Part shown: piece by piece, positions 6,942 to 21,282 of the stretch | How positions within the stretch are numbered: position 1 is the first letter of the stretch | Layout of the letters: each line of letters starts with the position of its first letter | Assembly: GCA_017470985.1 (NCBI GenBank) | Contig: JAFUXA010000002.1 | Location: 1-64,000 of the forward strand | Source: Lachnospiraceae bacterium | Lineage (GTDB): Bacteria; Bacillota; Clostridia; Lachnospirales; Lachnospiraceae | DNA: 64,000 bases | Direction of reading: 5' to 3' | Translations under genes and position numbers: made by a program | The notes under the pieces: model-generated | Told to the model about the DNA's origin: nothing | Seen by the model: only the letters and a program-made list of their open reading frames with translations | The model's database searches: none

Positions 6942-7014
6942 AGGCTCTCCACCGGCCATATACGGCTCGAGGCTAAACGCTTAACCTCGCCTTAATATGA
7001 CCGGAGGAGAGCCT
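6942..7014 (-). repeat. Hairpin repeat copy A (reverse orientation)
   Basis: First of about ten copies of a ~70-bp palindromic family. Arms AGGCTCTCC (6942-6950) and GGAGAGCCT (7006-7014) pair and enclose the conserved core, here reading ATACGGCTCGAGG from left to right. The core carries one extra base in its apical loop. It lies in the 396-bp gene-free stretch after the chemoreceptor and could terminate its transcript, although no T-run follows. Confidence 0.85.
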
Positions 7015-7130
7015 TGCTAGTTTTAACGCAATTAATAGATGAAAAATCATACCGCTAAAAGAAGCAGAGGCTGGCACTGACCTCGAAGGGAGAGCCTTGC
7101 TAGTTCTAATGCGATTAAAGGATTGAAAAA
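7015..7130. repeat. Degenerate repeat remnant between copies A and B
   Basis: The segment GAGAGCCTTGCTAGTT that ends copy A (from 7007) occurs again at about 7091-7106, followed in both places by similar TAA-GC-ATTAA and GATGAAAAA/GATTGAAAAA text. The DNA between has lost the core, keeping only fragments such as GACCTCGAAGG. This looks like a decayed tandem duplication of the element. Confidence 0.55.
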
Positions 7131-7200
7131 GACTTCTCAGCAATCATATAAAGGCGAGGTTAAGCGTTAGCCTCGAGCCGTATATGATTGCTGGGAAGTC
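7131..7200 (+). repeat. Hairpin repeat copy B
   Basis: Left arm GACTTCTCAGCAATCATAT pairs with ATATGATTGCTGGGAAGTC at the right end, one wobble or mismatch aside. The core between is AAGGCGAGGTTAAGCGTTAG followed by CCTCGAGCCGT. The arm sequence is unrelated to copies A and C, yet it is self-complementary. Confidence 0.88.
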
Positions 7201-7221
7201 TTGATATATTATTAATTGAAA

Positions 7222-7293
7222 AAACTCCCCATCTACCATATAAAGGCGAGGTCAAGCGTTAGCCTCGAGCCGTATATGGTAGATGGGGAGTTT
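7222..7293 (+). repeat. Hairpin repeat copy C
   Basis: AAACTCCCCATCTACCATAT pairs perfectly with its mirror ending GGGGAGTTT. It sits 15 bases beyond the stop of the convergent minus-strand gene and is flanked by A/T runs, so it can act as a terminator. It is nearly identical, including flanking TAAATTAG, to copy G at 20962-21033. Confidence 0.88.
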
Positions 7294-7308
7294 AAATTAG
7301 TTATACCA

Positions 7309-8000: not shown

Positions 8001-8147
8001 ATGAAACACATTCAGACATTAAATACAAAGAAACTTCAGAACACAGTTAAAAAAGGTGGATGCGGTGAGTGCCAGACATCTTGCCAGTCAGCTTGCAAGA
8101 CTTCTTGTACAGTTGGAAATCAGAGCTGTGAGAACAAGAACAACTAA
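8001..8147 (+). CDS. scfA: SCIFF precursor peptide (six cysteines in forty-five)
   Basis: A 48-residue peptide beginning MKHIQTLNTKKLQNTVKK, a near-consensus SCIFF leader, followed by a core with six cysteines spaced C-x2-C-x3-C-x3-C-x3-C-x6-C. SCIFF peptides are the substrates of the radical SAM enzyme encoded next door, which installs Cys-to-Thr thioether bonds to give a ranthipeptide. GAAGGAG lies just before the ATG. The peptide is among the most conserved small genes of Clostridia, and its biological role is not settled. A hairpin separates it from scfB. It is too short for ordinary gene finders, but the sequence is unambiguous. Confidence 0.95.
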   Translation: MKHIQTLNTKKLQNTVKKGGCGECQTSCQSACKTSCTVGNQSCENKNN

Positions 8148-8205: not shown

Positions 8206-8233
8206 ATTTGTGCGTTTTATAAGGAGGCATATT

Positions 8234-9607
8234 TTGGTTCATCAATACAAAATGGGAGGCTATAACATAGCCATTGATGTCAACAGTGGAGCAATCCATG
8301 TGCTTGATGATATGACTTATGATATGGTTGAGTTGTATGAAAAGAAGAGCCAGGAGGAAATCAAGTCAATTCTAGCAGACAGATATCCGGGACAGGCGGA
8401 TGAAATAGATGATGCTTGGAATGAGATACAAGAACTTATAGAGGCAGAAGAATTATTTACAACAGATAATTATGAGCCTTATATTACAGACTTTGCCAAG
8501 AGACCTACAGTGGTCAAGGCGCTGTGCTTACATATTTCACATGATTGCAATCTGGCTTGCAAGTACTGCTTCGCAGAAGAGGGCGAGTATCATGGTGGTA
8601 AGCGTGAGCTTATGAGTTACGAAGTTGGTAAGAAGGCTTTGGATTTCTTAGTGGCTAATTCAGGAAATCGCAGAAATCTTGAGGTTGATTTCTTTGGTGG
8701 AGAGCCACTTCTAAACTGGCAGGTAGTGAAGGATTTGGTTGCATATGGTCGCAGCCTTGAGGAAAAGCACAACAAGAACTTCCGATTTACTTTAACTACC
8801 AACGGTGTATTAATAAATGATGATGTTATTGAATTTGCCAACAAAGAGATGGCAAATGTAGTCTTGAGTATCGATGGTAGACCGGAGATACATAATCTTA
8901 TGAGACCTTTTAGAAAAGGTGCTCCAAGTTACGACATTATCGTTCCTAAATTCAAGGAATTTGCAGAGAGCAGAAATCAGGAGAAATACTATGTGCGAGG
9001 CACATTTACCAGAAATAATCTGGACTTCTCTAAGGATGTGCTTCATTTGGCAGATTTGGGATTTAAACAGATATCAGTTGAGCCTGTTGTAGCCAAGGAA
9101 ACAGACGATTATGCAATTCGCGAGGAAGACCTGGATGGATTGTATAAGGAGTATGAGGATTTGGCACAGGAAATGGTTCGTCGTCATGGTACTGATGAGG
9201 ATTTCAATTTCTTCCACTTTATGATTGATTTGGAAGGTGGTCCTTGTGTAGCCAAGCGTCTCTCAGGATGCGGCTCAGGTACAGAGTATCTGGCAGTTAC
9301 ACCAACTGGAGAATTATATCCATGTCACCAGTTCGTTGGAAACACAGATTTCATTATGGGAAATGTGGACGAAGGTGTTACTAGAACAGATATTATGGAT
9401 GAATTCAAAAGCTGTAATGTATATGCCAAGGATAAATGTAGAGAATGTTTTGCAAGATTCTACTGTAGTGGTGGATGTGCAGCCAACTCTTATAACTTCC
9501 ACGGTGATATTCATGATGCTTATGATGTGGGATGTGCGCTTCAGAAGAAGAGAGTGGAGTGTGCTATATATATTAAAGCAGCATTGGCTGCAAAAGAAGG
9601 AGAATAG
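8234..9607 (+). CDS. scfB: SCIFF radical SAM maturase (ScfB, SPASM domain)
   Basis: A 457-residue radical SAM enzyme that forms thioether links in the SCIFF peptide. The N-terminal ~90 residues form the peptide-binding RRE-like region and begin VHQYKMGGYNIAIDV. The radical SAM cluster motif CNLACKYC lies near residue 105. The C-terminal SPASM region has cysteines near 335-345 and the cluster CRECFARFYCSGGC near 402-415, which hold two auxiliary iron-sulfur clusters. The start is TTG at 8234 with AAGGAGG seven bases upstream; a GTG at 8210 would include the binding site as coding sequence. Five bases separate it from secDF, an order common in Clostridia. Confidence 0.95.
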   Translation: MVHQYKMGGYNIAIDVNSGAIHVLDDMTYDMVELYEKKSQEEIKSILADRYPGQADEIDDAWNEIQELIEAEELFTTDNYEPYITDFAKRPTVVKALCLHISHDCNLACKYCFAEEGEYHGGKRELMSYEVGKKALDFLVANSGNRRNLEVDFFGGEPLLNWQVVKDLVAYGRSLEEKHNKNFRFTLTTNGVLINDDVIEFANKEMANVVLSIDGRPEIHNLMRPFRKGAPSYDIIVPKFKEFAESRNQEKYYVRGTFTRNNLDFSKDVLHLADLGFKQISVEPVVAKETDDYAIREEDLDGLYKEYEDLAQEMVRRHGTDEDFNFFHFMIDLEGGPCVAKRLSGCGSGTEYLAVTPTGELYPCHQFVGNTDFIMGNVDEGVTRTDIMDEFKSCNVYAKDKCRECFARFYCSGGCAANSYNFHGDIHDAYDVGCALQKKRVECAIYIKAALAAKEGE

Positions 9608-14513: not shown

Positions 14514-14583
14514 GAATAACCCTGTATCATATACGGCTCGAGGCTAACGCTTGACCTCGCCTTAATATGATACAGGGTTATTC
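14514..14583 (-). repeat. Hairpin repeat copy D (reverse orientation)
   Basis: GAATAACCCTGTATCATA pairs perfectly with TATGATACAGGGTTATTC, enclosing the conserved core in reverse (ACGGCTCGAGG to CCTCGCCTTA). It is the first of three copies in the 432-bp gene-free stretch after serS and may terminate the glyA-serS transcript. Confidence 0.88.
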
Positions 14584-14611: not shown

Positions 14612-14682
14612 GAATAACTCTTGCATCATATACGGCTCGAGGCTAACGCTTGACCTTGCCTAAGTATGATACAGGGTTATTC
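14612..14682 (-). repeat. Hairpin repeat copy E, decayed duplicate of D
   Basis: This copy starts 98 bases after D and shares D's flanking TCTCGTAAATGGATATA, so D and E are a tandem duplication. In E the left arm reads GAATAACTCTTGCATCATA and no longer fully pairs with its right arm, and the core has CCTTGCC for CCTCGCC. This shows an arm mutating without compensation. Confidence 0.8.
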
Positions 14683-14716: not shown

Positions 14717-14786
14717 TCGCCCCTTGGCTGCCATACTGAGGCGAGGTTAAGCGTTAGCCTCGAGCCGGTATGGCAGCTAGGGGCGA
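14717..14786 (+). repeat. Hairpin repeat copy F
   Basis: TCGCCCCTTGGCTGCCATAC pairs with the right arm ending GGCAGCTAGGGGCGA. The core GAGGCGAGGTTAAGCGTTAG then CCTCGAGCCG is in forward orientation. The arms are GC-rich and unrelated to D/E. The remaining bases to 14916 show only A/T-rich leader sequence. Confidence 0.86.
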
Positions 14787-20961: not shown

Positions 20962-21033
20962 AAACTCCCCATCTATCATATTAAGGCGAGGTCAAGCGAT
21001 AGCCTCGAGCCGTATATGGTAGATGGGGAGTTT
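20962..21033 (+). repeat. Hairpin repeat copy G
   Basis: AAACTCCCCATCTATCATAT pairs with the right arm ending GGTAGATGGGGAGTTT. It differs from copy C, 13.7 kb away, at only a few bases and shares its TAAATTAG flank, so whole hairpins appear able to be copied. It opens the 460-bp gene-free stretch between the convergent aminotransferase and typA genes. Confidence 0.88.
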
Positions 21034-21052: not shown

Positions 21053-21127
21053 AAAAAGCCCAACAATCATATTAAGGCGAGGTCAAGCGATATCTTCGAG
21101 GTGTATATGATGAATGGAGTTAATGTC
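21053..21127 (+). repeat. Hairpin repeat copy H (right half decayed)
   Basis: The left half AAAAAGCCCAACAATCATAT plus AAGGCGAGGTCAAGCGAT is intact. The right half reads TATCTTCGAGGTGTATATGA then TGAATGGAGTTAATG and no longer pairs with the left arm. The same altered right half recurs in copy I. Confidence 0.75.
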
Positions 21128-21131
21128 AAAT

Positions 21132-21206
21132 AAAAAGCCCTTCAATCATATTAAGGCGAGGTCAAGCGATATCTTCGAGGTGTATATGATGAATGGAGTT
21201 AATGTC
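21132..21206 (+). repeat. Hairpin repeat copy I (right half decayed)
   Basis: It begins 79 bases after H and shares H's altered right half and the AATGTCAA flank, so H and I are tandem duplicates. The left arm AAAAAGCCCTTCAATCATAT is identical to that of copy J. Confidence 0.75.
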
Positions 21207-21210
21207 AATT

Positions 21211-21282
21211 AAAAAGCCCTTCAATCATATTAAGGCGAGGTCAAGCGATAGCCTCGAGCCGTATATGATTGATGGGCTTTTT
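21211..21282. repeat. Hairpin repeat copy J, a bidirectional terminator
   Basis: AAAAAGCCCTTCAATCATAT pairs with ATATGATTGATGGGCTTTTT around an intact core. The A5 and T5 tails make it a textbook bidirectional intrinsic terminator for typA (minus strand) and the convergent operon. It starts 79 bases after copy I. Confidence 0.9.

Follow-up and report, generated by a model that had tools for sequence, protein, structure and literature searches.

Some gut Lachnospiraceae carry hairpins at the 3' ends of genes in which an asymmetric apical tip of 31 nt is conserved, while the stems of about 20 bp below it vary by locus and yet remain self-complementary. We put the chances about evenly for and against these hairpins being a new family of small repetitive 3'-end elements, REP-like and composed of a recognised tip and local arms. 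The best reading of them is as a REP-like family in reverse, with the tip fixed and the arms local. They were found in a window of 64,000 nucleotides, the whole stretch of DNA that was analysed, and were then followed into other genomes of the family.

Tip hairpins in the window

An earlier, sequence-only reading of the window had counted about ten hairpins in both orientations. The count stands: the core AAGGCGAGGTYAAGCGWTAG, with at most 3 mismatches, has 10 matches in the window and none in 100 shuffles. The ten hairpins are grouped in three intergenic clusters, whose neighbouring genes were identified with Pfam.

The first cluster (6.94-7.29 kb) lies 3' of a chemotaxis-receptor gene. Hairpin A (6942..7014, minus strand) differs from the 20-mer core at 2 positions and its loop is longer by one T (TTTAG), hairpin B (7129..7202, plus) was recognised by core match and folding, and hairpin C (7222..7293, plus) has arms and a right flank in common with hairpin G of the third cluster. 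Between A and B, at about 7046..7095 on the minus strand, a decayed tip-like remnant can be made out by eye, and the same stretch, read in inverse orientation, resembles the 3' end of the receptor's coding sequence. Beyond this cluster, at about 8001-8147 (+), the window contains a frame for a 48-aa cysteine-rich peptide (MKHIQTLNTKKL...) upstream of a radical-SAM-like protein (8210-9607), a pair that we take to resemble a SCIFF-type peptide with its maturase.

The second cluster (14.51-14.79 kb), 3' of serS, consists of hairpin D (14514..14583, minus), its tandem copy E (14612..14682, minus) and hairpin F (14717..14786, plus) in the opposite orientation. The third (20.96-21.28 kb) lies 3' of typA and has four hairpins, all on the plus strand: G (20962..21033), with the arms of C, H (21053..21123), I (21132..21202) and J (21211..21282), the one closest to the 3' end of typA. 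The right half of the tip is altered and degenerate in H and I, each of which has lost 7 of its 19 outer pairs; E has lost 6. About 5.5 kb of genes, at 15.4-20.9 kb, separate a hexapeptide protein from typA in the window (a regulator, a kinase, and aldolase-like, GtrA-like and aminotransferase genes); the interval is about 0.5 kb in a second genome of the genus, G001, and almost nothing on contig C37 of a third, G002.

The window's genome assembly (2.38 Mb in 35 contigs, 88.8% complete) yielded no further copy, either to the 20-mer with up to 2 mismatches or to the covariance model R1 at E<=1, whose extra matches were the same places on the opposite strand. All copies in this genome sit inside 14.3 kb of a single contig, which local duplication fits as well as mobility does. 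The expectation of further copies genome-wide failed within this incomplete genome; it succeeded outside it, with 10 copies in G001, 2 in G002 and others in five further genera.

A fixed tip on local arms

Folding of the well-kept copies gave arms of about 20 bp, a GGC/GCC helix, a GA bulge on the 3' side, a GAGG/CCTC helix and a loop of about 11 nt. This is the core fold drawn from the window's sequence, and it holds for those copies; the loop of A is one T longer, and E, H and I are degenerate. In outline the tip consists of a short lower stem, GAGG, the loop, CCTC, a bulge of GA or GGA and the partner of the lower stem. The loop reads YYAAGCG plus 3-4 bases in most copies, and one lower-stem pair alternates between G-C (11) and C-G (10).

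Compared between 14 loci, identity is 73% in the 31-nt tip and 29% in the 22-nt arms, which bears out the proposal of a conserved tip on non-conserved, self-complementary stems. Among the four loci of one genome, G228, the figures are 83% for the tip and 33% for the arms, which are local and unrelated. When the arms of 13 loci were paired with their own partners the scores were 12-21, against a mean of 1.6 for pairings across loci; the highest cross-locus score, 12, was between two copies of the same genome, G037. Another genome, G126, has a variant tip common to its 7 copies, with outer arms that are largely different and nearly all paired; the arms of two copies are the same.

Covariation of the arms was examined in 23 copies out of three genomes. 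Pairing cells made up 87.9% compared with 77.4% in shuffles, and 15 of the 19 outer pairs had changes on both sides, counts that are not of independent events, as the copies are related. The covariation score was 0.323, against 0.146 +/- 0.013 after shuffling and at most 0.125 with slid partners, so the predicted arm covariation is present, with the same caveat of relatedness. No pair of the inner helix had changes on both sides in this set. Pairing is also kept between orthologues: hairpin B and its G001 orthologue have CAAT/ATTG and CCAT/ATGG respectively, and the typA hairpins of G002 contigs C37 and C1 differ in sequence with their pairing intact. Two causes had been offered for stable pairing with changing sequence, selection on the structure or a copying mechanism that rebuilds stems. 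The kept pairing of orthologues supports the first, and the second has some support from the inverted similarity past the stem described below.

Distribution in Lachnospiraceae

Tips were found in all three genomes examined from the window's genus. The two congener records are Lachnospiraceae MAGs, one of them out of water deer rumen. The 10 tips of G001 are at loci orthologous to the window's, and the 2 of G002 are each at a typA 3' end, so that typA has a tip hairpin in each of the three. The G002 bin has two typA loci, on C37 (L029) and C1 (L030). Identity to the window is about 90% and 86% for C37 and 79-81% for C1, and as C37 is the closer of the two it may come from another species.

In a sample of 397 genomes from 334 genera of the family, a 19-mer with at most 1 mismatch matched 4 genomes (3 genera), and the reversed 19-mer, used as a control, matched 3 genomes once each. 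The tip model R2 at E<=0.01 gave matches in 9 genomes (8 genera) and R3 at E<=0.02 in 14 genomes (14 genera). We removed eight genomes for want of a tip-centred stem (G054, G062, G161, G190, G210, G227, G347 and G414), with their loci L108 (G062), L109 (G054), which is additionally inside an ORF, and L163-L168 (the other six), and for the same reason the weak loci L169 and L171 of G232. A tip with a tip-centred stem and unrelated self-complementary arms then remained in 6 of the 334 sampled genera, a lower bound because the filters of the large searches lose weak matches. The carriers are the window's genus, G037 (16 copies), G059 (2), G228 (4), G232 (1 of its 3 matches) and G126 (7).

Model R1, run on 98 relatives, found no tip in the 38 genomes from other families of the order. 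Within the carrier genera we did not find the tip in G391 and G436, congeners of G037, or in G406, a congener of G059, and the family is therefore patchy. Exact scans of viral contigs with 4 patterns gave no match, and neither did blastn of window positions 7125-7300 against phages and plasmids.

The probability that chance or assembly produced these hairpins is close to nil. Such an origin might draw on the two congener records being MAGs and on C37, which seems nearer than C1 to the window's species; but the core has no match in shuffles and G037, with 16 copies, is assembled as one contig of 2.77 Mb. The recurrence of the same loci in independent assemblies refutes it.

Gene context and transcription

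At the 17 loci where both neighbouring genes are known, hand counting gave 10 convergent, 7 tandem and no divergent pairs. The count leaves aside L116 and L172, each with one unknown neighbour, the MITE-like copies of G037, and the two G002 typA loci, which correspond to the typA locus already counted in the window. By hand count too, the 54 gene pairs of the window itself are 7 convergent, 41 tandem and 6 divergent. At the window's rate of 7/54 the probability of at least 10 convergent pairs in 17 is 1e-5, and at a rate of 25% it is 0.003; the probability of finding no divergent pair is 0.14.

These 3'-end positions, with the covariation of the arms, could mean that the hairpins are structured RNA elements, in which the tip, at the 3' end of an mRNA, binds a protein or confers stability, the arms are terminators selected for pairing, and spread has been vertical and by ordinary duplication. 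We think this rather improbable. In its favour, the complement of the tip is in the upstream mRNA at 5 of the 7 tandem loci, and the frequent T/C changes in the loop preserve pairing, in the form of G-U, only in the RNA that is the complement of the tip. However, L174 has the reverse orientation and serS is mixed (D and E against F), and even with serS put with the majority the lean is 6 of 7, which is not significant (p 0.06). Wobbles in the arms favour the other strand, that of the tip, by 14 to 3. Loop and arms contradict each other, and G-U pairs give no consistent guide to the transcribed strand. Two further points against an RNA element are the arrays of at least four hairpins, which have no evident use as terminators, and the tip's being beside different genes in most genera: it is at oadA 3' ends in G037 only and at typA in the window's genus only.

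The hairpins resemble bidirectional intrinsic terminators in their place between convergent genes and in the T-tracts beside several of them (J, L101 and L120). They differ in their long stems and conserved 31-nt tip, and by eye most copies in G126 have no U-tract. A terminator scan limited to loops of 3-8 nt called none of the ten window hairpins.

How copies arise

Hairpins C and G have their arms and the right flank TTTAAATTAGYTATA in common, and at least one dispersed copy therefore took its arms along. Other copies record exchange. At the receptor locus G001 has two hairpins that combine a C-like left arm with a B-like right arm, the outcome expected of an unequal exchange inside the tip, and at its serS locus one arm pair is divided between two adjacent hairpins. 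The tandem arrays and these chimeras show exchange inside the shared tip.

Of the 16 copies in G037, 14 belong to a MITE-like repeat, whole or in part: a stretch of about 440-480 nt is common to 12 of them, another shares about 230 nt, and the last is a shortened form. The TIR-like ends of this repeat resemble AAATTCAGGTTTGT. The remaining two copies are at aroC-udk and oadA. TIR-like ends are also common to four loci of G126; the window's genus and G228 showed none. At the same four G126 loci (L110, L172, L174 and L175), the tip is flanked on each side, at a distance of about 50 nt, by GGGACTGTTGCAAAAT-like sequences, which we take to resemble the ends of IS6-family elements.

At serS and at the orthologue of 7309, G002 has unrelated, ordinary hairpins and the tip is absent, which means either gain in the other genomes or loss in G002. 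At aroC-udk (L157, L151) and oadA (L133), G436 (both places) and G391 (aroC-udk) have tipless palindromes with GGCC-rich arms, a TTTTTAAAAA centre and a similar flank, AATTGAAAA..CCCTGTCCC; this is perhaps a second repeat family standing where G037 has a tip hairpin. At tkt, G406 and G059 have homologous arms whose differences compensate each other. We had considered that the tip was inserted into the loop of an existing terminator. The unrelated hairpins of G002 and the unrelated palindromes of G436 and G391 leave this unsupported, and the tkt centre in G406 is diverged and longer, so it makes no clean case for tip insertion.

Inverted similarity past the stem

If stems were built by copying, similarity between the two sides might extend beyond the paired arms. 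We skipped the 28, 32 or 36 nt adjoining the tip and compared inverted similarity at a hairpin's own locus with that of permuted pairings. Across 23 loci it was above the permuted level, with p 0.0002, the smallest possible value, and the 9 loci that belong neither to the window's genus nor to G126 gave p 0.0002-0.0024. This fits template switching or fold-back copying, and is suggestive of them without being proof. PMC8794818 describes template switching as able both to create and to repair stems.

A stronger form of the copying idea is that the tip templates its own stem. The 31-nt tip would arrive alone and its folded-back end would prime copying of the adjoining flank, whether that is the 3' end of a gene or an IS or MITE end; the stem would be an inverted local duplication, of which the inner part is kept and the outer part decays. 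We regard this as doubtful, at about the same level as the RNA element. Besides the similarity past the stem and the known capacities of template switching, it would account for the arms of G228, local and unrelated at four loci whose tips are so alike. Inverted near-copies of coding 3' ends, lying across the tip, were found with p<=0.05, uncorrected for multiple tests, at 4 of 13 loci: the MCP (0.0007), nitroreductase (0.0003), pfl (0.048) and aroC (0.048) genes. At the other 9 of 13, however, no significant copy of the coding end was seen, and the MCP alignment runs partly through the decayed tip, which resembles coding sequence by chance. The outer similarity at the four G126 loci is TIR-like sequence common to those loci, C and G brought their arms along when they moved, and an empty site matching one arm was not found.

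Comparison with known elements

The earlier statement that no named family fits has been upheld at Rfam, which has no match at any tip hairpin, in the window at gathering scores or at 7 loci with E up to 1. Rfam's only match in the window is a group II intron at 69-139 (+; RF00029, 43.9 bits). Among the titles and abstract openings listed in literature searches, none describes the tip-hairpin family.

The nearest likeness is to REP, BIME and REPIN elements as PMC3116915 defines them. Both are short non-coding extragenic hairpins in both orientations and in arrays, and both would be non-autonomous if the tip hairpins require a factor in trans. In REP the whole palindrome is conserved and is tied to RAYT, whereas in the tip hairpins the tip alone is conserved and the arms are local. 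We saw no RAYT link in the window's genus. The suggestion that a RAYT-type Y1 transposase is the source, which would make the hairpins REP or REPIN elements mobilised by it, draws on their intergenic gene-end places, orientations and arrays. In the window's genus it was not supported, and we consider it very improbable: each of the three genomes has one Y1_Tnp match, those of G001 and G002 partial. That of the window's genome adjoins a TnpB-like ORF, looks IS200/IS605-like by eye and is on a contig without a tip. The Y1 transposases of this genus, judged from the window genome's match, show no sign of RAYT, and for the genus we set that origin aside.

Other comparisons fit in part. The ~480-bp repeat of G037, with its TIR-like ends, and the ends shared by the four G126 loci are MITE-like, but copies in the window's genus, G228, G059 and G232 share their centre and no common ends were seen. 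Integron attC sites likewise stand at gene ends and fold into imperfect hairpins with bulges, and in them the base of the stem is conserved; the tip hairpins, compared with this general description, are similar in bulges and place and differ in that the tip, not the base, is conserved. The template-switch hairpins of PMC8794818 are alike in their perfect stems, multi-base compensatory change and inverted copies of neighbouring DNA. There, however, the mutation occurs at any site, whereas in the tip hairpins one conserved tip recurs at the centre.

What the hairpins may do

We detected neither a factor nor a copy in the act of moving, which counts against the REP-like reading, as do the confinement of the window genome's copies to one contig, the patchy distribution and the outcome of the terminator scan. 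That reading, with tip fixed and arms local, suggests how the hairpins would work. The tip would be the part recognised by a putative factor, on single-stranded DNA or RNA, and would be conserved because of that recognition. The arms would need only to pair, and selection, combined with template switching in replication, could maintain or restore their complementarity. Where a U-tract follows, the hairpin may also terminate transcription, in many cases that of both genes of a convergent pair. Such elements would work like REP and BIME, as non-autonomous 3'-end hairpins served by a trans-acting factor, with the tip as the conserved part.

Covariation is the usual proof of functional RNA structure. 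If the tip does template its own stem, it would be a mobile seed and among the smallest mobile DNA modules, its arms built at each site, and the covarying stems would be a by-product of copying and not of selection. With many independent stems on one fixed tip, selection and template-switch copying could be separated by sequencing strains. The family points to a putative factor in Lachnospiraceae that recognises the tip of a hairpin, and to a route by which new 3'-end hairpins arise.
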